NCBI GenBank assembly: GCA_003152225.1
Contig: PLZQ01000525.1
Coordinates: 3,620-38,563, forward strand
Reading direction: 5' to 3'
Origin: Limisphaerales bacterium
Lineage (GTDB): Bacteria; Verrucomicrobiota; Verrucomicrobiia; Limisphaerales; UBA8199
DNA length: 34,944 nt
Under the pieces are notes generated by a model. That model saw only the letters and a program-made list of their open reading frames with translations, had not been told where the DNA came from and did not search any database. Position 1 is the first letter of the stretch. Every line of letters begins with the position of its first letter. This document shows, one piece after another, positions 17,220-34,944 of the stretch. Both the position numbers and the translations under genes were made by a program.

Positions 17220-18380
17220 ATGAAGAGTTCCGACTCTCAACGAGCTACTCGCCCAGCCAGGGCGGTGACCATCACGGAGGTTGCCACCCAGGCTGGAGTC
17301 TCGACTGCGTCGGTTTCGCGGGTGCTGGCGGGCTCTCGCTTCGTGGGGAGCCGAATGCGGGAGCGTGTATTGGCGACCGTCGCGAAACTGGATTACCATC
17401 CCAATCGTCTGGCCAGGGATTTGCGGGTGGGCTTGCGCAAGGTGATCGGGGTGATTATTCCCGATTTGCAGAACCCGTTCTTTCCCGAGGTGGTGCATGG
17501 GGTGGAGGCGGCGCTTTACACGGCTGGCTACACACTGGTGTTGGGACACTCCGGCGGTTTGGCCGAGCGCGAGCGGACGCATCTCGCGGTGTTGCGAGGC
17601 GAGGGGGTTGCCGGGCTGATCCTCATTCCGGACAGCGAGCGTGAGGCCAGTTACGAGACGCTGCATTCCTGGGACATCCCGGTCGTTGCTGTGGACCGGA
17701 CACCGAGCGGGCTGGAGGTGGACTTGGTGACCTCGAGCAACCGGGTGGGCGCCCGGGAGGCCACCAGTCATCTACTGGCCCACGGCTACAAAACCATCGC
17801 TCTTATCAATGGCCAGAAAGGGGTCAGCGTGGCGCAGGAGCGCCTGGCCGGCTACCAGGAGGCGCTGCACGCTGCGCGGGTGCCTTTGCAGGAAGCTTTC
17901 GTCATCCATAGTGATTTCCGCCAGGAAGGCGGCCGGATGGCAATGTGCCGGTTGCTGGACTTGCCGCGGCCGCCGCGGGCAGCAGTGGTGGCCAACAATC
18001 TCATGGCGCTGGGAGCCTTGCAGGCCATTCATGAACGCGGGCTGCGCATCCCGGACGAGGTGGCGATCGTGGGCTTTGATGACATGCCGTGGGCGACGTC
18101 GCTTCGGCCTCCGCTGACCGCCGTGGCCCAGCCGGCGGAGGAAATCGGCCGGACCGCGGCGCAACTGTTGCTCGAACGGCTCCGCTCGCCGGGGCGGCTG
18201 CCGCGGCGAGTGGTGCTGCCGACCCGGTTAATCATCCGCGCGTCGTGTGGCGCCCACGCTCCTACCGGCGTCGAGCCCGTCGTGGTTTCCGCCGCGCGGA
18301 AGCACGGTCAAACGAACAAATCAGTCAACTCCGAATACCCGGCTTTCAAGCCGCCCGTGCCCGCCGGGCCGGGCCTTTGA
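17220..18380 (+). CDS. LacI-family transcriptional repressor
   Basis: A 386-aa regulator. The helix-turn-helix is at residues 17-62 (TITEVATQAGVSTASVSRVL and then a YHPNRLARDLR hinge region), followed by a periplasmic-binding-protein-like sensor domain (about 75-345): VIGVIIPDLQNPFFPEVVHG, then PVVAVDRTPSG, ATSHLLAHGYKTIALI, and the second-half IPDEVAIVGFDDMPWATSLRPPLTAVAQP, all textbook family blocks. The ligand is probably a sugar but cannot be named. A 40-residue Pro/Ala-rich tail after the usual end is not conserved. ATG at 17220 was chosen because the HTH begins a few residues in. An operator overlaps its promoter. The gene lies just upstream of the 1751-aa secreted protein, its most likely regulated target besides itself. 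Confidence 0.93.
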   Translation: MKSSDSQRATRPARAVTITEVATQAGVSTASVSRVLAGSRFVGSRMRERVLATVAKLDYHPNRLARDLRVGLRKVIGVIIPDLQNPFFPEVVHGVEAALYTAGYTLVLGHSGGLAERERTHLAVLRGEGVAGLILIPDSEREASYETLHSWDIPVVAVDRTPSGLEVDLVTSSNRVGAREATSHLLAHGYKTIALINGQKGVSVAQERLAGYQEALHAARVPLQEAFVIHSDFRQEGGRMAMCRLLDLPRPPRAAVVANNLMALGALQAIHERGLRIPDEVAIVGFDDMPWATSLRPPLTAVAQPAEEIGRTAAQLLLERLRSPGRLPRRVVLPTRLIIRASCGAHAPTGVEPVVVSAARKHGQTNKSVNSEYPAFKPPVPAGPGL

Positions 18381-18389
18381 GCCCGGGCC
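18367..18389 (+). terminator. Terminator-like hairpin at the end of the LacI-type gene
   Basis: GGCCGGGC (18367-18374) can pair with GCCCGGGCC (18381-18389) with one bulged G and the loop CTTTGA. It overlaps the stop codon; only TT follows, so the call is tentative. Confidence 0.35.
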
Positions 18390-18435
18390 TTGCAAATTTG
18401 AGATTCGTCCAACCCGCAGTTAAACTTAAAAACCA

Positions 18436-18441
18436 TATAAT
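18436..18441 (+). promoter_or_regulatory. Perfect -10 box TATAAT next to the 1751-aa gene start
   Basis: TATAAT at 18436-18441 with no good -35. If used, transcription would start near 18448, after ATG 18443, and translation would have to begin at ATG 18461. Confidence 0.3.
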
Positions 18442-18442
18442 A

Positions 18443-21400
18443 ATGAAAAATCAGACCCTTATGAAAACCATGATCAAGACCTTGGGCTACTGGTGTGCGG
18501 CAGCCGTTACGTTCGCCGCCGCGGTGCTTCCGCTGCGGGCGGGCGTGGCCTTGAAACTCCAGTACGACAGCATCACAGGCAACGCGGTGATCAATCTCAC
18601 CACCAATGCCATCTTTCCCAACGGCTCAACCTTCTACAGTGTGCTGACCACCGGCCTGCAGGAGCCGGAGAACATTGGCGACAACTACGGCGCGTGGACG
18701 CGCGGGTTTATCGAGGCCCCGCAGACTGGCCAATACCGGTTCTGGATTGCCAGCGATGATGACGGCGAGTTTTGGCTGAGCACCGACGAGCAGCCCGCGC
18801 ATCTGGCGAAGATTGCCGAGAATGTGGGCGCGGTCGCCTCTCATAATTACACCGCCAAGGCAGCCCAGGAATCGGGCCCGATCACCCTCGTGGCGGGGCA
18901 GAAGTATTATTTTGAAATGTTCCACAAGGAAGGGACCGGCAACGATTCATGCTCAGTAGCGTGGACGCTGCCCGACGGGACGCTCCAGGACCCGGTGCCA
19001 GACGCCCATCTTTGGCCCTTCCCGGTGAACCTGGGCGATCCAGCTTATCCCCCCATCACCGAGGCCCCATCGGTCTTAACCTACTACCAAGGTGTCGGGG
19101 TAACCGCGCTGGATCCGTCCGGCACGACGATGGTAGAGGATGGCCGGCCGCTCGATCTAACGGTTACGGTCGAAGCCAGCCAGCCAGCTTACGTGCAATG
19201 GTTCAGCAACGGCGTCGCGGTGGCCAATGGCAACCTGCTTTCTTACCACATCCCGCGGGTGACGGCGGCCATGAATGGCGCCGTTTACAGTGTGGTCGTC
19301 ACTAACTCCCTTCCTGGCTCGGGCACGGCCTCAACGACGCTTTCCGTAACGCCGGACTCCGATTCTCCGACGTTGATTGATGCGCTGAACCTGGGCAACC
19401 CGGCAGGCGACATCGCCGTGGTCTTCTCGGAACCGATGGACCCGGTCAGCGGCACGACCCTGGCCAATTACGCCATCAATAATGGCGCCAACATCACCAG
19501 CGCGACGATGAGCAGCGACCCTGCGGTGGTATTGCTGCGCGTCACCGGCATGACGCCGGGTACGACGTACACTTTAACGGTCAACAACGTGGCGGACACA
19601 GCTTCAACGGGCAACGTGATTTCGCCTAATCCCAGCACCGTCATCATCGAACAGAATCTGCACACCTGGTTCCGCATGGATGAGGCGACGGGCACGACGG
19701 CCAGCGACTCTTCGGGCTACAGCCGCAACGGCAGCCTCGTCAACGGCGTCTCGCCCGACTACACCGGCAAAGTGCAGGCGGCGATGAAGTTCGACGGTGT
19801 CGCCGGTTACATTCAGGCCCAGAGCAGCGCCGATGACTTTTCCACTAACGGGCTGACCGTGGCCCTGTGGGCTTACCCGGTTGACAACCTCGAGAACTGG
19901 GCGCGCTTCATTGATTATGCCGTCGGCTCATTTTCCGACAACATCCTGTTCGCTCGCAACGCAACCAGCCCCGACCTCACCTTCGAAGTTTATAATGGTG
20001 TCAACTCCGGCGGTAAGGTCACCGCGACCGGCGTCATCGCTCTCCAGCAGTGGCAGCACTTTGCCGCGACGATGGATGCCAGCGGGAATGTGACGCTGTA
20101 CAAGAATGGCATCGCCGTCACCAACGGCGTCACTTACGTCCCTAATGCCGTGGCCCGCACCAACAATTTTGTCGGTCATAGCAACATGGCGCCGGACGGT
20201 TATTACTTTGGGAAGATGGACGACCTGCGACTCTACACGCGCGCGCTCGACCCGGCCGCGATCGCGGCGCTAGCCGCCGGCGGGGCCGCGGATGATTCTT
20301 CCATCCCGGCTGTGTCGGTGGCCGTGACGGTCGCGACCACGGCGCTGAAGGGCACGCCCCCCGGCGTGTTCACGCTCACGCGTACCGGCAGCACCGCCAG
20401 CCCTCTGACGGTCCTCTATTCGCTGGGTGGCACCGCGACCAACGGCGTCACCTATACCAACCTGAGCGGCTCGGTCACCATTCCCGCCGGGACTAACGCA
20501 GCCTCTGTCTATATCACGCCCAAGGACTTCGCCTTCTCACAACTTCAACAGACTGCCATCCTTACATTGGCGGGCAGCGCCAATTATACCATTGGCGACG
20601 CCGACTCCGGCACGGTCACGATTGAGAACAACGACGTGGCCCCCGCCGCCAGGACCGCCACCGCCGAAAACGCGATTGGCTCCACGCCGACCCGGGTGGA
20701 CGTTTGGTTCGGCGCGCCGGTTTCCCTGCCCTCGGCCACGACTTTGTCCAATTATCGGCTGGTCAACGCCGGTGGGCTGTCGATCACTAACGCGGTTTTG
20801 ATCAGCCGCAATCTCAGAGTCCTGCTGGGCATTTCTGGTCCGCTCCCCACGAATGCCTTTGTGAGTGTTAGCAACGTCATGGACCCGGGCGGCAACACCG
20901 CTTCGAACCAGATCCCGATTCTGGCCCGAGTGGAGCCAATCAATATCGTTGCCAACGTCTATCACGGCGGAGCGGGCACCCGTCCCCAGGCCTTTACTTA
21001 CAGCAGCGACGGCGTCGTAAACAACTCCAACAATGGCGGCGCCGGCTTTGACACCTTCAGCGGGGCGGCCAACACGCAAACCCATTTCGCCGGCATGACC
21101 TATCCCTACAATGAGGATTTCCAGGTCATCAAGGTGGACCTGGGCCAGCAGTTCGCCGACGGCGGCGATTGGCAAACCCAGCCGTCAGTTTACATCCTTA
21201 AGGAACCGGTGGACACCGGCTCGACGCGTCCGGAAACCGACACGAACAATTGGGTGCAGGTCGCCGCCACACTCATCAGCGGCAGCCAATTCCAATCCGC
21301 CGTAGATGGTAACCCTTCGCCCAATACTCCGATCGTGTTCGATCTTACGGCCCTGCCCGCAGCTCAGAGGAACGGCTACGGCTGGGCGGTCGGTGGGGTC

Positions 21401-23698
21401 ATGGGCAACGGCACGACTCGTTTCTTGTCGTTCACCGAATTGCGCGCCTACGGCTATACGGGCACGACCAACACCGCCGGTTTCCAACCGCAGCCCCAGG
21501 ATCTCACCGTCGTCCAGGGCCAGCGGGGCACCTTCGTGGAAGTGGCGACCAACAGTATGGGCGCGGTCTTTACCTGCCAGTGGCAAAGGAACGGCACCGA
21601 TATCCCGGGCGCGACGGATGTCAATTACAGTATACCGCCGGCGACCACGGCCGACAACGGGGCCATCTACGACCTCATGTTGAGCCGAGCGGTGCGCAGC
21701 CGGCTCGCCACTCTTGCTGTCGTTCCCAGAACCACGCCGCCGGCTGTGGTCGTGGCGACGCTGGATACCTTCAACTCCGTGATTGATGTATGGTTTGACG
21801 AACCCGTCGAGATCACCTCCGCCACCACCCTCGCCAATTACGGCCTCAATGATCCCGGGCTCTCGCTCTACAACGTGGCGACCAACCTCAACATGTATGG
21901 CGTTACCCTCTATTACGCGGGCACTCCCAGCATCGGCAACCTGACGGTCACGGTCGCCAATGTGATGGACAACTTCGGCCATACTATTGCGGCGCAGACT
22001 AGTCCTGTGCTGCCGCAGAATTGGCCGGTGAACAACGTAGTCGCCAACGCTTACCAGCAAAACCGCGCCACCGTTTGTTTGGTGGATTCCACCGACGGAA
22101 TCGTGTCTCATGCCAACGACGCCAACATTTGGGCCACCTTCGAGGGTACCAAGAACGCCACCACCAGCGACTTCGTCGGGCTGATTTATCCCCAACCGCA
22201 GGTCTTTGGAGCAGTCAAAGTGGACCTGGGCTACCAATTCGGTGACGGTGGCGACTGGGAACTCCAGCCTTTCGTCTATATTCTCAAGAACCCAATCGAT
22301 ACCAACCAGAGATACCCGGAGTATGATCCTGCCGATTGGACTTTAGTACCGGCGACGCTGTTGAGCGGCAACGTGTTCAATTATGGGATAGATGGCCCTG
22401 CCAACGCAGCCCCAGTCAACACGCCGATTGTCTTCGACTTGTCTCGGCTGCCATTGGCATTGCGAACGGGCTTTGGCTGGGCGGTCGGCGGCGTGCCGGC
22501 CAACCAGGCGGCCCATTTCCTCTCTATCACCGAGTTGCGGGCCTTTGGCGTGGCCGCGGCTGATGAAACTAATGGAGCGCCGCAGGTCCTGCTCGACCTG
22601 CCAGCGTCGGTGAGTTCTCCGGCCGGGGCTCCTCTCACGCTGACGGTGTATGCGGCAGGCGCGCAGCCCATCAGCTACCAGTGGCGCTTTAACGGAACCG
22701 ACTTAGCCGACAACGGTCAAATCGCCGGCGCGCACTCCAACGTTCTAACCATCACCGATCCCTCCATCAGCGATGTTGGGAATTATCAACTCATCATCAC
22801 CAATTCGACCGGCTCGAATGCCAGCACGCTGGCGAGTGTCACCCTGACAGGGGTGCAGTTGGGCAACGGCACTGGCTGGGTGCAGACCGGGAACAACGGC
22901 AGCGCCAACAGCGTACCTATCATTGCCAATAACATGGTGACGCTGACCGCTGGCGCCGGCAACGAGGATTCGAGCTGCTTCCTGAGTGCGCCGGTGTACG
23001 TCGGTGCATTCGCGGCCTCATGGATCTACCAGGACGTCGGCGGCGGCGGAGCCGACGGCATGGCTTTTGTCCTGCAGACTGATCCGCGGGGACCCGTGAC
23101 TCTCGGAGGCGGGGGCGGCCAACTGGGTTACGGTGGCATCACTCCGAGCGTGGGCCTGGAGTTTAACATCTATTCTGGTAACGCCCCGTCCACCACCAGT
23201 TCGGGTATTGCCTTCCGAGCTAATGGCGTTACGGGGAAACCCTACGACGACGCCACCCCGGTCAGCCCGGCGAGCGGCAATCCCATTGCGGTTTCCGTGC
23301 GCTATGATGGAGCCACTGCGTTTGTCACGCTGAGCAACATGGTGACGAGTGCCGTGTTCACCACCAATTACGCAGCCGACGTGCCGGGGATTCTCGGGAC
23401 CAACATCGCCTACGTCGGCTTCACGGGCGCTTCGGGCGGCGTCGCCTCGGAGCAGCAGGTGAGCAACTTCACCTTCGGCAGCCTGTACACCTTGACCCTG
23501 CAGTCGGCGGGCTCAAACGGGTTCACCCTATCCTGGCCGGCTTCGGCCGTCGGGGTAGTGCTGCAGCAGAGCTCTGTTTTAGGGTCCTCTGCGACCTGGG
23601 CGAATGTTACGAATCCGGTCACGCTGGTCGGTGACCAGAACCAGGTTCTGGTGGCGCCCGCCGCCGGCGGGCGGTACTATCGGCTCGGGCTGCCATAA
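18443..23698 (+). CDS. Very large secreted multidomain protein (PA14, LamG, Calx-beta, Ig, lectin-like)
   Basis: 1751 aa with a signal peptide ([18 protein letters not shown]). Domains with approximate residues: PA14 (35-190; [20 protein letters not shown] and [10 protein letters not shown]); Ig-like and SbsA-type Ig (205-400); LamG jellyroll (405-612; [18 protein letters not shown]); Calx-beta (620-730); a duplicated unit of SbsA-like Ig plus a beta domain, copy A 733-1007 and copy B 1098-1370; single Ig-like domains (1013-1094 and 1378-1469); an L-type-lectin-like domain (1471-1682; [17 protein letters not shown] and [10 protein letters not shown]); and a tail ending GRYYRLGLP. There is no catalytic domain, so it probably binds polysaccharide or acts as an adhesin. 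ATG 18443 was chosen; ATG 18461 is equally possible. The frame is open upstream into the LacI-type gene, without meaning. Confidence 0.8.
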
Positions 23699-23736
23699 GT
23701 CCAAACTTCTGTTGAGTGGACAGATGATGGTTTACG

Positions 23737-23768
23737 GCCCCGCCCCGACGTTCGAGTCGGGACGGGGC
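23737..23768 (+). terminator. Strong hairpin after the 1751-aa gene
   Basis: GCCCCGCCCCGAC (23737-23749) pairs with GTCGGGACGGGGC (23756-23768) over 13 positions with one mismatch and the loop GTTCGA; TT follows. It lies 39 bases after the stop and before the next start, and probably ends or attenuates transcription. Confidence 0.55.
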
Positions 23769-23801
23769 TTGCGGGCCAATTCGGTCAGTTATGTGAGAGC
23801 T

Positions 23802-24644
23802 ATGAGAATTAAAGACAGCAAACCAAGTCCGGCAGGCCGTCGCGCCATCCTTGGCCACCCGCGCGCACGGATTGGGTTCACGTTGATCGAACTGCTGGTC
23901 GTTATCGCCATCATCGCCATTCTGGCGGCACTGATCCTGCCCGCACTGGCCCGCGCCAAATCCAAGGCCCAGCGCACTTACTGCATGAACAACCTCCGCC
24001 AGATCGGTCTCCACATGCAGCTCTACACCGATGACAACCGCGACTTCTTCCCGGCGCACCGGAATCAGGGCATTGATAACGCGGATTCCACCATCTCCCT
24101 TACCAATTGGTGGGGCACCACCATCATTGGCTATAACCAGGCCCAGTCCAACCTGTATCACTGTCCGGTGCTAAAAGGCAAAATGACCGTCCCGTTCAGC
24201 ACGCTGACCTGGTCCTGGAAGTTCGACTGTCATAATGTCGGCTACGGCTACAACGGTTGGTTCCTGGGCCGGCACCCTTATGATCCGGCCACCCTGTCGG
24301 TGGGCGGCGTTACTTTTACCGCGGGTGTTCAGTTCAAACGCACACTCGTTGTTAAACCGACCGATTGTCTGATGATCGGGGATAAGAATCCCACGCCGGA
24401 CGGGTGGTGGTCCTCCAGTTTATGGTGGGAATCGGCCTGCATGGATCCGATGTCCTCTGACCTCCGGCGTGAAGGAATTGATCCCCTGCGCCATCTGGGC
24501 ACGGGAGTTGTTGTGTTCGTGGACGGCCACTCCGAGGCGCGCAAGAACATCAATATCAACCCGCCGGTGGCCCCCGACAGCGGCGACGCGCGCGGCCTGA
24601 TTAATTCCCGTTATTGGGACCCGCTGCATAGATCGGACCGGTAA
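23802..24644 (+). CDS. Second pseudopilin-like protein with H-X9-DG motif
   Basis: A 280-aa protein with a basic 25-residue leader and a prepilin cleavage site, Gly25/Phe26, before [19 protein letters not shown]; Glu30 is mature position +5. The helix runs into [31 protein letters not shown] with the 'C.NNLRQIG' block usual in the DUF1559-like group. The C-terminal [18 protein letters not shown] is the H-X9-DG motif. Aromatic-rich middle strands ([26 protein letters not shown]) suggest the usual beta-rich head. It is a paralogue of the protein at 13455, sharing the first 40 mature residues closely and little beyond. ATG 23802 gives the normal leader length; the open frame reaches back to 23604. 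Confidence 0.88.
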
Positions 24645-27520: not shown

Positions 27521-30500
27521 CTAGGGGCGGGTGGCGCGCAGCCAGACGCGCACGGTGATAAACTGGTTGGTGGAAGTCGAAAAAGGCGCCACCAGACGGG
27601 CGGTGACGGTTTCGGTCAGGTTGTTGCCATCAGGGATGGCTTGCAGCTCTGTGACATAGTTCGTGCCGGTTTGCCAGGTGACTAAATCACTCGAAACGGC
27701 GACGGCGTAACTGACATCGGTCGGCTCGATACGCCGGGGGTAAGTCAGCATGACGTATCGCTGCTGATCGGTGGGATCAAGCTCGATCGTCATCACCAGC
27801 GGGGCGTTGGTCTCGGGCGTCTTGGGATCGCGGTTGGCGGCGTATTCGGCCAGGTTCACCAGGCCGTCGTGGTCAAAGTCGGCCCCCTCACCGCTCAGGC
27901 TCGGATCGGTCAGTTCCTCCAGCGTGAAATGGCCGATCGTCCACACTCCGTAAGGCGAGTCATGGATGGTCACCGTCGCCTCGCCGTTGCCGATCGAGTA
28001 GGCGAGATTGGTGATGATCGTGAAGATGACCGTTTCATCCCCTTCGGTGCGATGGTCGAGATAGGGGGTGATGACGATCTCAACCGTATCGGTGCCGGCG
28101 GGGAAGACGATGGCGTTGGTCACCTCGACGTAGTCCACACCGTTGCTGGCAATGCCGCCGATGGACAAGAAGACCGGCAGATCAAAACTGGTGTCGCCAT
28201 TGCGGGTGAAAGTAAACGTCCCCGTATCCGGTCCGAGTTCCGCCGCCTCCGGATCACTGGCGAAGACATCGACCCGCGTCGGCTCGATGACCGTCAGCGT
28301 AATATCACTGTAGGTTTTGACCTGGCCATCATCCGCAATGAGGCGGAAAACATACTCGCCGGGGTCGGTGAACGGGATGGTGTTGGTCAGGCTGTTAACA
28401 TTGGTAATCGTAACGGGGACGGGACCGCTGAGGTTTGTCCAGGTGGCGACCACCGTGCCCGGAGGAACGGGCCTGCCGTCGTCGGTGATAAGGCCGGCGA
28501 GCGTGCCGGGCGTGTTGAGCTGCAGCGTAAAGTTGGTGCCGGCATCAACCACCGCCGCGCAGTTGGTCGGCGGCAACGAGGCCAGCGCGGCTGCCTCCCC
28601 GGCCGTGAGCAGACGGGGGAACAGGCGCACGTCATCGATGTGGCCGTTCCACGAGAGCAGCCAATCCGGTGGCCCTTTGCCGACGACGAACTGCGGGCAA
28701 TTAGTCAGGACTCCGCCCAGGGCCACCATGTGGGCCATCGGTTGGTCCAACTGGCCGTTGATGAACAGAGCCGGCGCCACGCCGTTGCTCCACGTCAGCA
28801 GCAAATGCTGCCAGGCGTTGGTGGCGATGTTATTAGCGCTGATGCGCCGGACAAAGCCGCGCGTCGTAGCCACGGTAGCCTCAATGACATTGGTATATTG
28901 ACCGTAGGAAGCGACGTTCTTCGAGGACAAAGAGAGCGTCACATTTGTGCCCGAATCGGCAGCCGTAAAGATACCCTGATCGGCATTCGTGCCGGTCTGC
29001 TTGACCCAGAGCGAGAGCGAAAAGGCCGGCAGACCATCGAGCGAGCTCGTGGCGTTGGTCCCGCGGACTGAATCGTTCCCGCCGGCGAAGCTCAGCGCGC
29101 CGCCCAGCACGCCATTGGTGACCCAGGCGGGGTTGCCCGCCAGGACGCCGTTGTTCCCCGCCCCGGAGGAATCGAGCACGTTCGTCCCGCTGCCCTCATC
29201 AAATGACCAGTGGAGCGAATTGGTGGAGAGCAACTCGACGGCCCCCACCACCGCCGTGACTTCCGCGAAGCTCTGGAGCTGGCCATCGTCAGCCGTCAAC
29301 CTGAGCACATAGATGCCGGCATTCGTGAAACTAACGGTGGTGCTGGCCTGGTTGGTGTCGCCGAAAGCAAGCGAATCGGGTCCGCTGACCTTGCTCCACC
29401 AATACGTGAGCGCATTGGTGTCGCCGTCGTCCATCACCATGGCTTCGAGAATCATATTCACGTTGCTCCCGAGGAGAAAAACGACGTTGGCCGTGGGGCT
29501 CGTGATGTTGACCGCGGGGGCGAGGTTGGTGCCCGCGTCAAGAATGGTCACCAGCGCGTTGCTGGGCGAGAGGATGCTGTAGGCCGGGTCTGGCAACAAC
29601 ATGGCCGTGACGGTCTCCGGGCCTTCGATGACCAGTTCATTGGTGGGGGAAATGAGCAGGTCAATCGAAGTCACCCCGTAGGAGAAGTAGATGTTGGTGA
29701 GAAACGGCGGATAATCGACGCCGTAAGTCGCGGTTCCGCCGACCGCCAGATATGCGGTAAAGGTGTATTTGGGATCACCGCTGCGTGTGACGGTCAAAAC
29801 GCCCGGGGTCTGGCTGCCCTCGACCACTTCGGGCACGGTGGCGGTGATGGTTAGCATCGGTTCGTCGTCATTGATGATCACCGTGGCACTGCTCGGGGTA
29901 TCCACGAAATAGGCCGGGGCGGACTGCAACGTCAACGTGACCGTCTCCGGCCCTTCGACGAGCGTATCGTCTATCACGATGATTGGCAGCGTAGCGAACA
30001 AGCTGCCGGTCGGGATGATGATCGAGTTGGAGATAGCGACGTAATCCACCCCGTTGCCGGCTGTGCCGCTGATCGAATAGAAGACCCGCACATCCGCGTT
30101 GGTGGTTCCGAATCGTGTGAAGGTGAATTCGCCCCTATCGGTTCCGGGCTCGGCGGCGGTGAAATCACTGGCATCGATTCGCACCCGCTGGTCGTTGTCC
30201 TGGATGGTGACAATCGCCGACGCGGTATAGCTGACCCGATACGTGCCAAGTACGGTGAGGTCTGCCACCACGGTCCTCTCACCTTCCACCAACGTGTCAT
30301 CAATGGCTTGGACCGGCACCGACACGGAAACCTGGCCATCCGGGATGGTAATCGAGTCCGGGAGAGCGACGTAGTCCAAGCCGCCGCGACCCGTGCCGCC
30401 AAGCGAGAAATAGAGCGTCAACGGGCCGGCGGTCGTGGAGCGCCAGAAAACAAACTCGCCGTTACTGCCGCCTTCGACCGCATACGGATGATTGGTGGAG

Positions 30501-33500
30501 GTGACCGTGACCACCGGCAGCGAGTTGGGATCATTGTCGTTAATCGTTACCGTGGCGACGCTGGGGGAGACGATCCTTGAACCCGAGGCGCTGATGAGAG
30601 TGACGACAACGGTTTCAGGAAGTTCCACGGTCCGGTCATCCACGGGCAAAACCGGGAGATCAACAAACGCGGCGCTCGCGGGGAGGATTACGGAAGTGCC
30701 GAGAGGCGCGTAATCGGTCGGGGCGCTGGCAGTGCCGGTGACCTGGAAATTGACCAGGAGCGGCGCGGCGGTGCTGCCGGTGCGGGATATCCGGAAATTG
30801 CCCGCCGCAGGCCCGGTCTCAGATCCGCTGGCAGTCGTGGCCGTGATGCTGACCGCGTTAGTATCGTCGTCCAGGATTGTGTACGTGTGAATCTTGATGC
30901 CATCAAGGGTGGCATTGATGGGGTCATAAAGTGCCAGCCGGATTGTGCGATTGGGCTGGGGAATTGAATTGTCTTTGATGGTGAGAGGCAGCGATTTAGC
31001 CAATTCGCCCGGATCGAAGGTCATTGGGCCGGGCGGCAGCGTATAATCGTTGGTCGAGGCGGTGCCACCGACGACCCGGTAATTCACCGTAATGGGCACC
31101 GAGGAGGTCTGACTGAGCGAGACGCTGATGCCCGGCGACTGACTTTCCGGCGCGCTGGAAGTGCTGAAGGTAAACCCAACCCCGGGCACGCTGTTCGCAT
31201 CATCATCCAGAATCATCACGCGCGCCTGGAGCGGCGAACCCAGGTTGTAATTGGTGTTGGCGAGCAGCGTCAGGATGACATCCTCGATCGGCTCCAGGAT
31301 AAGGTCATCAAACGCAATGATATCCACCGAGACGGAGCTCGACCCGTCGGGGATCACCACCGTGTTGTCGATGGGCACATAATCGATGCCATTCATGGCC
31401 GTGCCGCTGATCGCCAGATAGACCGTCAGATTCCCATTCTTCACCGAGCCGCGCGAGATTTGGAACGTGCCGAACTGATCGCCTGGCTCGGAGGCGGTAT
31501 CGGCAGTGGTGGTAATGGTGATGCTAGGTTTTGACTTGTCGTGGATGAACAGCGTCGCGCTGCCGGGCGTGCCGACATTATAGCTGGCGTTGTTGGTGAG
31601 AGCTAGAATGACTGACTCATCCCCTTCGAGCAGATTGTCATCAAGTGGGGTCAGCACAATATCCGCCGAGCTAGCCCCTGCCGGGAGAATCACCGAACCG
31701 CTCAGCGGCACGTAGTCCAAGCCGCTCGTGGCCGTGCCGCTCACGTTGTAATAAACCACCAGGTCGGGGTTGAGGTCCCCGTCCCGCTTCACTGTGAACC
31801 TGCCGGGCGTAGAAGGTTCGGCGGCGTCCGCGCCGGTCGGGAAGATTGTCACGGTCGTCAGATTATCGTTGAGGATCGTGACCTGCGCCGGCGAACCGCC
31901 GATGGTGTAGGCGGCATTCGCGGACAGGGTGACAATCACGGTAGTATCCGGCCCAACGTTCCGGTCATCGAGCGGCTGGAACTGGGCAACGGCGCTGCTT
32001 TGGCCGGCAGGTATCACGACGACACCCAGCAGGCTAGTGTAGTTGGCACCGGGGACCGCGGTGCCGCTGACTGAATAGAATACCGTGAGCGGAGTTTGTG
32101 TGCTGCCGTCGCGGGAAAAGACAAACTGGCTAAGGTCCGTCCCATTCTCAGAAATCGAGGGCGTCGTTGCCACGACCGAAACCGCCGACCTGCTCGGCGC
32201 ATCATCGTCGAGGATCGTAATCGTTGCCTCACCCAGCGAGCCAACCACGTTCGTCAGATCATCCGCAATCGTCAGCGTGGCCGTTTGTGGGCCGCGGACG
32301 AGCGAATCCTTGATGGTCCGGAAGGCGACCCAGAGCGCGTTCGTTCCGGGGGGAATGTCGATGGAGTTCGTGCCGCTGGCCAATGCCGGGTTCAATTTGA
32401 AATCAACGCCGACCGCTGCCGAGCCCGACAGGTTAAGGTTCACTGTCAAATTCGTCGTGGTGTCACCCGTGCGCGTGAGGATGAAGTAATTCGTCGCCGT
32501 GCTGGTTTCCGGGACCTGGTTGGTAGTGACGGCGATGCTGACGGTGGTCAGCGGGATGGCGATAAAGTCCGCGGCCAGAATGTTCGAGCTGGCCGTAATC
32601 GGATTGGCCCACGTGAGGTTGGTGAGGACGTAGCCATAATTAAAGGCGTACAGGTTGATGTCGCCCGAGACGCCCGTAATCACGTAACGGCCATCGCTGT
32701 CGGTGTAGCCGCCGACGTAAGTGGAGGCATTGGTATCGGGACTGTTATCCACGCGCACCCCTTCGACCGGCGCTCCATTGGGGTCTCGCACCACACCCGT
32801 AATGCGGCTGCCCGTTGGCTCGCCCACGGTCACGACCGCGTTAGCGCTGGCGACCCCGCCTTTCATGTCGCTCACCACACACCGGACAACATGTTCACCA
32901 GCGGGGAAGCTCTTGAAGGTCCACGGCAAATTATTGGTCGAAAAGGTTGCATCATCGAACGTCCAGGCGTAGGCCAGCGTATCCCCGTCCGGGTCGGAAG
33001 CGGTGGCATGGAAATGAACCAGCATGTCGGGAGTGGCATTGGTGGGCGATACCTCCACTTGCAACACAGGTGGCTGATTGTCTGGAAACCCGCCCAGGTT
33101 CACCTGCACGTCCATCCAGATGTTGGTGCCCGTGGCTCCGCGCTCCAGCGGCGTGATGTGAACGCCGGCCTGCCGATCGCTGAACGTCCGCCCGACCACC
33201 ACTGCTGCGTCGGTGCGTCCCTGCGGTGTGCCCGGCGTCGTGTCGATCAAATCGCTGCCTCCCTTGCTCTGGTCGAACGGCGACCAATTCAGCAACACCC
33301 CATATTGCAGCCACGGATTATACGTGAACTTCTGGCGGAACTCGACCCAGTAATCGCGTTGATAATCCTTGCGGACAGTGGCCGCATAAAAGCGCCCCGG
33401 TTCGCGGCTCGGCACATCGAAGGGATAAATCCGATAGACGCCGTTGGTGCTGACGTCGGCCACGGCCGTATTCGGCAGCCAATCCAGGAAGTTCTTGAAC

Positions 33501-34944
33501 ATCGAGCTGAACTGGTTATTCCCAGCCGACGCCGCGCCCATCGTGTCGTAGGGGTTGCCGTATTCGGTGTTGGTTCCCAGCCCTGTGCCGAGGGTGAAGT
33601 TGTTCATCGAGGTGTCCCAGAAATTCGCGTGCATCAACCCGTAATTGTGCCCCAGTTCGTGCGCGGTGACTCCCACACCGGTGCTTTGCAGCCAAACTCC
33701 CTTGCCGTGCACATAGGCCAAGCCGGCCCAGCCGCTGAAGTCCTTCCCCGGGACCGAGGTGAAACAAGCGATGTCGAATGCGTAATTGGCGGTGTCATAC
33801 TCAGCGAGGCGGGCGACAGCACGCGCGTCGTCGAGCAGCGCCCCGACGCCGGCAGTGCTGTACCAGGCCTTGATTTGGGGCAGCGTCAGTAACGGCGTCA
33901 CCGTCGCGGTGAGCCAGGTTTGGTCGTAAGAACCTTCCGCGTAAAAGGCGTTGACGCCCACCATCTGGTTGTAGGCGTCGGCTTCTGAAACCGGCTCGGT
34001 GAGGTCATCGGGAAAATTCAGCCGCATGTAGAGCAGCGACTTTTCGCCATGCGTCCAACTATCATTGTCGGCTGACTGATCGGTGGCCACCAGGGGGCGG
34101 ACACCGCCGCCGCTGCTGTCCTCCGCCATCACCGAATGTTGGGTAACCAGTTGTGCGTGTGCCGGGCCGCAAAAGCACGCCAGCTCGCCGCCGATGTCGG
34201 CTGCCAACCCCTGTTGCCCCAGATTAACCGCCGCCCCGCAAACGCCGCAGTTCTGGCTGAGGGCCTGGCCCCGTGCCTTCGCCAAGGCACCGGCCTCGCC
34301 CGGACCCAGCAATCGAATCGGCTCGACCGACACCGCCATCTTCCCGTCGAGAACTATGCCGTGCAGTGGAATCTGCACTTGGCACCCCTGGCGGAGCCGC
34401 CGCCCATAAACGAAGGCTTCATACTTTTGCCCGTTGACGCGAGCCCATCGAAGCATCCGCTCATTGCTGTGTTCGACGTCTTCCGCCATAGCGACATCCA
34501 GCGCGCCCCGCCCATCAACCTGCTGCTCGAAAAGCCGGCTCACGCTCGCCGGCAGTGCGCTGCGCCAGCCAAAGGGCACCGTTAGCGCCAGGGCCTTTTG
34601 CGGGTCGGACCGGATCAGCTCGACCATGGCCTCGCGGCGTTTCCACGCTAGCGCGGCGCCTCGGGCTGCGCTTGCGGAGGTCTCCCCGGCCAGGAATTGC
34701 TCCGCCCAGCGCGAGAAGTCAGTGAAAGCAGAGGGGGCGGGCGGAGAGACCGGCTGCGTGTTGAGGCTTGACTGTAGTGGTATCGCGGGATGGGGGTTGC
34801 GGATTGTGTGGGAAGCAGTAACGACGTGCGCAGCGGCGAGCACATGAGGTGGGTCGGAACCAGCAGGAGCGGCGAGAGGTACGAGGCGAGAGAAGTGCCA
34901 CCAAGCCAAGAAGGCAAGCACCGACAGAAAGATAATTCCTGCAC
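27521..34944 (-). CDS. Giant secreted metzincin-type metalloprotease with ten Calx-beta repeats (5' end outside window)
   Basis: More than 2470 aa; the frame is open through the right edge, where GIIFLSVLAFLAWWHF looks like the signal/membrane segment, so the start is outside. Numbering from GTG 34921: a propeptide with a NCGVCG cysteine pair (about 223-229); a zinc protease domain with HELGHNYGLMH (421-431), the HExxHxxGxxH metzincin site, and a Met-turn-like YDTMGAAS, closest to M11/M72-type peptidases; PKD (about 615-700); a carboxypeptidase-regulatory-like module (about 705-785); nine Calx-beta domains (about 787-1795); PKD; LamG (WSFDEGSGTNVLDSSG); an Ig/PKD-like domain; a tenth Calx-beta; then a DFDHDGLVNLAEYA calcium-type linker and a beta tail ending RVWLRATRP. 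Calx-beta domains bind calcium and stiffen long surface proteins. Probably an extracellular or surface protease-adhesin. Confidence 0.85.
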   Translation of the reverse strand, partial: AGIIFLSVLAFLAWWHFSRLVPLAAPAGSDPPHVLAAAHVVTASHTIRNPHPAIPLQSSLNTQPVSPPAPSAFTDFSRWAEQFLAGETSASAARGAALAWKRREAMVELIRSDPQKALALTVPFGWRSALPASVSRLFEQQVDGRGALDVAMAEDVEHSNERMLRWARVNGQKYEAFVYGRRLRQGCQVQIPLHGIVLDGKMAVSVEPIRLLGPGEAGALAKARGQALSQNCGVCGAAVNLGQQGLAADIGGELACFCGPAHAQLVTQHSVMAEDSSGGGVRPLVATDQSADNDSWTHGEKSLLYMRLNFPDDLTEPVSEADAYNQMVGVNAFYAEGSYDQTWLTATVTPLLTLPQIKAWYSTAGVGALLDDARAVARLAEYDTANYAFDIACFTSVPGKDFSGWAGLAYVHGKGVWLQSTGVGVTAHELGHNYGLMHANFWDTSMNNFTLGTGLGTNTEYGNPYDTMGAASAGNNQFSSMFKNFLDWLPNTAVADVSTNGVYRIYPFDVPSREPGRFYAATVRKDYQRDYWVEFRQKFTYNPWLQYGVLLNWSPFDQSKGGSDLIDTTPGTPQGRTDAAVVVGRTFSDRQAGVHITPLERGATGTNIWMDVQVNLGGFPDNQPPVLQVEVSPTNATPDMLVHFHATASDPDGDTLAYAWTFDDATFSTNNLPWTFKSFPAGEHVVRCVVSDMKGGVASANAVVTVGEPTGSRITGVVRDPNGAPVEGVRVDNSPDTNASTYVGGYTDSDGRYVITGVSGDINLYAFNYGYVLTNLTWANPITASSNILAADFIAIPLTTVSIAVTTNQVPETSTATNYFILTRTGDTTTNLTVNLNLSGSAAVGVDFKLNPALASGTNSIDIPPGTNALWVAFRTIKDSLVRGPQTATLTIADDLTNVVGSLGEATITILDDDAPSRSAVSVVATTPSISENGTDLSQFVFSRDGSTQTPLTVFYSVSGTAVPGANYTSLLGVVVIPAGQSSAVAQFQPLDDRNVGPDTTVIVTLSANAAYTIGGSPAQVTILNDNLTTVTIFPTGADAAEPSTPGRFTVKRDGDLNPDLVVYYNVSGTATSGLDYVPLSGSVILPAGASSADIVLTPLDDNLLEGDESVILALTNNASYNVGTPGSATLFIHDKSKPSITITTTADTASEPGDQFGTFQISRGSVKNGNLTVYLAISGTAMNGIDYVPIDNTVVIPDGSSSVSVDIIAFDDLILEPIEDVILTLLANTNYNLGSPLQARVMILDDDANSVPGVGFTFSTSSAPESQSPGISVSLSQTSSVPITVNYRVVGGTASTNDYTLPPGPMTFDPGELAKSLPLTIKDNSIPQPNRTIRLALYDPINATLDGIKIHTYTILDDDTNAVSITATTASGSETGPAAGNFRISRTGSTAAPLLVNFQVTGTASAPTDYAPLGTSVILPASAAFVDLPVLPVDDRTVELPETVVVTLISASGSRIVSPSVATVTINDNDPNSLPVVTVTSTNHPYAVEGGSNGEFVFWRSTTAGPLTLYFSLGGTGRGGLDYVALPDSITIPDGQVSVSVPVQAIDDTLVEGERTVVADLTVLGTYRVSYTASAIVTIQDNDQRVRIDASDFTAAEPGTDRGEFTFTRFGTTNADVRVFYSISGTAGNGVDYVAISNSIIIPTGSLFATLPIIVIDDTLVEGPETVTLTLQSAPAYFVDTPSSATVIINDDEPMLTITATVPEVVEGSQTPGVLTVTRSGDPKYTFTAYLAVGGTATYGVDYPPFLTNIYFSYGVTSIDLLISPTNELVIEGPETVTAMLLPDPAYSILSPSNALVTILDAGTNLAPAVNITSPTANVVFLLGSNVNMILEAMVMDDGDTNALTYWWSKVSGPDSLAFGDTNQASTTVSFTNAGIYVLRLTADDGQLQSFAEVTAVVGAVELLSTNSLHWSFDEGSGTNVLDSSGAGNNGVLAGNPAWVTNGVLGGALSFAGGNDSVRGTNATSSLDGLPAFSLSLWVKQTGTNADQGIFTAADSGTNVTLSLSSKNVASYGQYTNVIEATVATTRGFVRRISANNIATNAWQHLLLTWSNGVAPALFINGQLDQPMAHMVALGGVLTNCPQFVVGKGPPDWLLSWNGHIDDVRLFPRLLTAGEAAALASLPPTNCAAVVDAGTNFTLQLNTPGTLAGLITDDGRPVPPGTVVATWTNLSGPVPVTITNVNSLTNTIPFTDPGEYVFRLIADDGQVKTYSDITLTVIEPTRVDVFASDPEAAELGPDTGTFTFTRNGDTSFDLPVFLSIGGIASNGVDYVEVTNAIVFPAGTDTVEIVITPYLDHRTEGDETVIFTIITNLAYSIGNGEATVTIHDSPYGVWTIGHFTLEELTDPSLSGEGADFDHDGLVNLAEYAANRDPKTPETNAPLVMTIELDPTDQQRYVMLTYPRRIEPTDVSYAVAVSSDLVTWQTGTNYVTELQAIPDGNNLTETVTARLVAPFSTSTNQFITVRVWLRATRP
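29536..32561 (-). repeat. Array of nine tandem Calx-beta modules
   Basis: About 110 residues per unit, each with a 'E......F...R.G' start, a 'V.Y.VSGTA..G.DY' core (in variants), an 'I.IP.G.....' strand, a 'P.DD...EG.E.V.L.L' acidic turn and a final 'A.V.I.DDD'. A tenth unit, separated by PKD and LamG domains, is at about 27958-28286. Repeats are diverged at DNA level. Confidence 0.75.

Follow-up and report, generated by a model that had tools for sequence, protein, structure and literature searches.

Secreted metzincins that carry prodomains and PKD repeats are already known. In the InhA-type peptidases of family M6, the metzincin catalytic domain is preceded by an N-terminal prodomain and followed by further domains, and structures of the zymogen of B. 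anthracis InhA2 are available for comparison (PDB 4yu5 and 4yu6). PrtV of Vibrio cholerae combines an M6 protease with PKD domains, is processed from a precursor at both its N- and C-termini, and is stabilised by Ca2+ (PMC2613228). Akkermansia OgpA, a protein of 385 residues, is annotated as M11, with no experimental evidence for a proenzyme (PMC7518263). On the adhesin side, BapP of Pseudoalteromonas tunicata is a Ca2+-dependent adhesin with a Calx-beta tandem and predicted Sec export (PMC12153261). The protein described here shares the prodomain-first arrangement and the trailing domains of the InhA/M6 peptidases, and the HEXXHXXGXXH motif and Met-turn of M11, the gametolysin family. Unlike InhA/M6 enzymes, it has a long Calx-beta rod, a lectin-like end and a YHS-like knuckle in its prodomain. 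Among the proteins described in the literature consulted, PrtV is the closest analogue in overall plan. We favor the reading that the gene encodes a putative exported, latent M11-like/InhA-like zinc endopeptidase, which would be freed by cutting, held by its rod and C-terminal modules, and used to digest protein for nutrition. We assign this reading a probability of roughly 0.6.

The gene lies on the minus strand of the window, by which we mean the whole 34,944-nucleotide stretch analyzed (positions 3620-38563 of contig C54 in a fragmented assembly). Its frame at 27521-34942 encodes 2473 residues without an internal stop and is open at the right edge of the window, exactly where C54 terminates. 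We treated the long ORFs on the opposing plus strand as shadows of the gene's reading frame. The first-pass annotation had proposed looking for the start beyond this edge, and the sequence there supplies a probable one. Contig C528 (L038 1-107) shares a 107-base overlap with the right end of the window, with 5/107 bases differing, and reads on past the edge through a purine-rich upstream AGGAAAGGG and a probable TTG start (TTG AAG CGG ...). Joining the two contigs gives the N-terminus MKRFAIRAGIIFLSVLAFLAWWHFSRLVP, the first ~7 residues of which (MKRFAIR) are encoded on C528, and a total protein of ~2480 residues. Because the five mismatches resemble those of a strain-variant break, we infer the join and hence the start codon. 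In related genomes the genes flanking the junction sit on separate contigs, so synteny gives no support for the join.

Upstream of the protease start, C528 carries two 2-hydroxyglutaryl-CoA dehydratase D-component genes and an apolipoprotein N-acyltransferase gene. Near the protease gene, the plus strand of the window encodes a giant, probably exported protein of 1869 residues with PA14, LamG, Ig and legume-lectin-like domains (18089-23698), and a pseudopilin-like protein with an N-terminal methylation motif and a weak DUF1559 match (23604-24644). The features of the protease gene are collected in Table 1.

Table 1. Features of the metalloprotease gene in window coordinates; residue numbers (aa) refer to the 2473-residue frame.
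Feature	Position	Strand	Basis or remark
Hydrophobic N-terminal segment, end of a signal-anchor-like TM	34892..34942	-	rest on C528
Variable Pro/Ala/Ser-rich linker	34757..34891	-	low identity among orthologues
Conserved prodomain, aa 63-277	34112..34756	-	family alignment with invariant and near-invariant positions; confident AlphaFold model
YHS/TRASH-like putative metal-binding knuckle within prodomain, C232-x2-C235 ... C258-x3-H262	34127..34267	-	conservation and hhalign
Flexible pro/catalytic linker, presumed activation site, aa ~278-291	34070..34111	-	pLDDT <50 at model residues 221-235; cleavage presumed
Metzincin catalytic domain, from aa ~292	33464..34069	-	M11 match; InhA2/ADAM-type fold
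Zinc motif HELGHNYGLMH, aa 428-438	33629..33661	-	ligands invariant 60/60
Met-turn PYDTMGA (YDTMG aa 465-469)	33533..33553	-	Met invariant 60/60
Post-catalytic beta domain, to aa ~617	33092..33463	-	InhA2 alignment extends to model residue 561; 59-75 % orthologue identity
PKD domain	32843..33064	-	Pfam PF00801/PF18911
CarboxypepD_reg-like domain	32630..32803	-	below Pfam cut-off
Nine tandem Calx-beta repeats, aa 799-1804, linkers 0-3 residues	29531..32548	-	Pfam, genome search and alignment
K319L-like PKD domain	29249..29455	-	PF22352
LamG/ConA-like lectin domain (Laminin_G_3)	28595..29080	-	PF13385
Second K319L-like PKD domain, boundaries approximate	28289..28567	-	PF22352 in three stretches of the protein; same place in orthologues
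Tenth, separate Calx-beta repeat after LamG, aa 2221-2330	27953..28282	-	genome search and alignment
C-terminal module, EF-hand-like DFDHDGLVNLAEY at aa 2355 plus beta domain, including stop codon; candidate sorting/retention module	27521..27952	-	recurs in other ORFs

The active site is intact, as the first-pass annotation had claimed for the zinc site and the Met-turn. The catalytic residues are H428, E429, H432 and H438, together with M468 of the Met-turn, and the zinc ligands, the catalytic Glu and the Met are invariant in 34/34 and in 60/60 aligned family sequences. Degenerate enzymes do occur in large multidomain adhesins, so the possibility of an inactive pseudo-protease serving as a binding scaffold was considered. 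We found nothing in its favor and, given the invariance of these residues in all 60 sequences, consider it highly improbable. The HEXXHXXGXXH motif, the Met-turn and the metzincin fold of the model together mark the protein as a metzincin. By sequence it is nearest to M11: Peptidase_M11 (Pfam PF05548), with its cut-off of 21 bits, matches it at 23.1 and 27.0 bits, and the same profile matches 56/60 members at some level. The scores of two orthologues, L079 and L110 (19.7 and 20.2), fall just under that cut-off, so that M11 membership is borderline. In structure, M6 comes closest. An AlphaFold model built on the family alignment (pLDDT 90.5, pTM 0.90) has as its best solved match the B. anthracis InhA2 zymogen (Z 20 over 302 residues, model residues 96-561, 18 % identity), and this match runs from the prodomain through the catalytic domain into the post-catalytic part. 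ADAM, TACE, snake-venom and ulilysin/pappalysin-type proteases reach Z of about 10. The M6 profiles, however, refuse the protein. TIGR03296 gives 23.7 bits against a cut-off of 110.8, and PF05547 leaves the window protein unmatched, with weak matches in 17/60 members (best 6e-4). Therefore, we describe the protein as an M11-like/InhA-like metzincin that is not a member of M6.

The first-pass annotation had passed over the prodomain and the knuckle within it. The presence of a prodomain suggests that the enzyme is probably made latent, as a zymogen. Between the prodomain and the catalytic domain, AlphaFold places a low-confidence, presumably flexible linker. The whole protein has nine Cys, five of which fall within residues 187-258. 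Two prodomain Cys are near-invariant in the family (57/60 and 56/60), and a His follows four residues past the second in 53/60. These positions belong to a putative ligand set of the form [CD]-x2-C ... C-x3-C, which in the window protein reads C232, C235, C258 and H262; across the family, position 2 is Ser in 34/60 and position 4 is His in 53/60. In the AlphaFold model, this stretch forms a beta-hairpin followed by a helix, a predicted treble-clef layout. The stretch matches YHS domains, which are thought to bind transition metals, at the profile level: hhalign of 54 family segments against a YHS-domain profile from related genomes (PF04945) gave a probability of 96.0 (E 4.3e-9). Elsewhere in the family alignment, 50-residue windows stayed below 1, save two that overlap the motif. 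Pfam itself makes no YHS call on the window protein, and one family member matches TRASH at E 0.048. Certain members resemble textbook YHS domains, for example L095 with CPIKG...YFTCCSTC.

In the adenylyl cyclase of Mycobacterium phlei, a YHS domain lets Cu2+ turn the enzyme from inactive to active (PMC4626032). As in that cyclase, a short predicted metal-binding knuckle is fused to an enzyme here. The two differ in that the YHS domain of the cyclase is C-terminal, whereas the knuckle described here is part of an exported protease's prodomain, with C-x3-H rather than C-x3-C at its end. The knuckle might act as a metal/redox latch, in which gain or loss of a metal, or oxidation of C232/C235/C258, would time the cutting and activation of the zymogen. 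This is a tentative proposal, and we judge it doubtful. To our knowledge, latency through such a latch is known in no other metallopeptidase, and the literature searched yielded no metalloprotease whose propeptide contains a YHS domain. A simple cysteine switch by the two conserved prodomain Cys was also considered, and is less likely given the YHS profile match.

Behind the catalytic unit, the ten Calx-beta repeats, PKD and LamG domains read from the sequence by the first-pass annotation were all recovered by Pfam, with the refinement that the repeats are arranged as nine in tandem and one apart, after LamG. Pfam finds ten Calx-beta stretches (243.9 bits against a cut-off of 27, whole-protein E 2.9e-73). 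In the whole-genome search, 8/10 repeats are individually significant (E <= 1e-3); repeats 1 and 2 are weaker, with motifs still visible in the alignment. BapP has the same layout, a Calx-beta tandem with a further copy set apart near the C-terminus. It differs in having a five-bladed propeller at its N-terminus and a putative T1SS adjoining, whereas the window protein has a protease in the N-terminal position. Calcium-ligand positions were mapped through alignment to CBD1 of NCX1, using the residues that we take to be its ligands. Repeats 3, 4, 6 and 8 have nearly the whole CBD1-type set, repeats 1, 2, 5, 7, 9 and 10 have part of it, and acidic ligand positions are 74 % conserved versus 60 % for other positions. 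The proposal of a calcium-stiffened stalk is plausible for a portion of the rod: many repeats retain ligand positions and could bind calcium, and the linkers between them measure only 0-3 residues. The partial sets in several repeats count against it. Elsewhere in the same genome, a 3247-residue ORF (L011, C8:26000-45000) has about ten further Calx-beta matches.

The AxA cleavage motif is present in 3/35 family members; of the other exported proteins encoded at these loci, 20/41 have it (p 1.4e-4, which overstates the difference because family members are kin). The hydrophobic segment has a basic/His flank in 89 % of the family versus 61 % of other exported proteins. A relaxed cleavage pattern occurs in 21/35 members versus 39/41 others, so that the evidence for a signal anchor is a tendency, not proof. 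The N-terminal segment thus tends to resemble a signal anchor more than a cleaved signal peptide. An uncleaved inner-membrane anchor would fit an extracellular role awkwardly unless cleavage or C-terminal sorting frees the protein. The genome also encodes secretins, which is consistent with export. From the N-terminus, the order in the protein is signal-anchor-like segment, prodomain, catalytic domain and rod. With the rod downstream of the catalytic domain, it does not raise the protease off an N-terminal membrane anchor, and the earlier notion of a stalked enzyme close to the membrane is not supported. Such a stalk would require the cell-bound end to be the C-terminus, a possible arrangement. 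Two geometries follow. In one, an anchored zymogen would be freed by cleavage of the flexible linker; in the other, the protein would be held by its C-terminus, with the protease at the rod's tip.

The D.D.DG..N..EY motif and beta domain of the C-terminal module recur in other large, otherwise different ORFs of the genome (L172-L177, L179, L180), mostly ending at the stop codon, and this recurrence suggests a sorting or retention signal. Its model is beta, at low confidence (pLDDT 64). If such a module fixed the protein outside the cell, the Calx-beta rod could project the protease onto other cells or surfaces. A surface-anchored contact protease of this kind is consistent with the sorting-domain-like placement of the module in many large ORFs, with the 0-3 residue linkers that suit a stiff rod, and with the occurrence of Calx-beta rods in the Ca2+-dependent adhesin BapP. 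However, the window protein matches no known surface-anchor family and shows no C-terminal TM segment, and it scores 10.6 bits against a threshold of 23 for the T9SS tail family. A search for SprA of T9SS gave no match, but neither did its controls. In addition, the comparison of loci found no neighbor genes conserved across orthologues, for contact, predation or otherwise, and relatives are spread over many uncultured Verrucomicrobiota. The tool for cell contact or predation proposed by the first-pass annotation is therefore not borne out by the locus, and we regard a surface-anchored contact protease as possible but rather unlikely. A gene for an NtrC-type (sigma-54) response regulator adjoins certain relatives (L084 1488-2840, L088, L091, L089), upstream in some, which hints at possible regulation; none was seen at the window locus.

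The pro-catalytic unit is present in 30/58 related genomes searched, and one scan of a genome collection confirmed 383 relatives, the best 80 of which come nearly all from uncultured Verrucomicrobiota MAGs, with a few labeled Planctomycetota and others. Viral carriers amount to 12 remote matches to the catalytic domain only (24-39 % identity). Ten full-length orthologues of 2483-2525 residues have the same C-terminus, and domain order is identical in the three of them scanned with Pfam. Identity to the window protein is 60-67 % in the catalytic domain and 51-64 % in the rod; over the N-terminal 62 residues, identity between orthologues falls to 5-28 %, versus 40-78 % in other segments. Since most of the mass consists of adhesin-type repeats with a lectin-like domain, and since M6 proteases such as PrtV autoprocess (PMC2613228), the protein could be chiefly an adhesin or biofilm matrix component whose protease processes only itself or its neighbors. 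We find this quite improbable, because many more distant relatives carry the pro-catalytic unit on proteins of ~1050-1100 residues, which could not accommodate a rod of this kind, and because the catalytic domain is among the best conserved parts. These same two observations suggest that proteolysis is probably the shared function of the family.

For the latent, nutritional endopeptidase that we favor, the steps would be as follows. The N-terminal hydrophobic segment would carry the zymogen across the inner membrane and probably hold it there, with the prodomain blocking the active site until the flexible linker is cut. Cutting would release the mature enzyme, consisting of the protease, the putatively calcium-stiffened rod and the lectin-like end. 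The rod and C-terminal modules may then keep this enzyme attached to the cell or to (glyco)protein outside it, and there it would digest extracellular protein or glycoprotein for nutrition.

The literature searched holds no description of this family, and Calx-beta, Verrucomicrobia and metalloprotease never appear in it together. What stands out is the YHS-like knuckle, unexpected in the prodomain of such an enzyme, in a family that is large yet little studied. The protein unites three features that are usually found apart: its zymogen is InhA-like, its rod is of the calcium-type adhesin kind, and its presumed inhibitory part contains a YHS-like metal knuckle. The C-terminal module, shared with other large ORFs, is a candidate sorting signal in Verrucomicrobiota that lends itself to testing. 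If the knuckle governs activation, metal status would be linked to extracellular proteolysis, and the metal/redox latch, if true, would lie in a family of hundreds of Verrucomicrobiota proteases.
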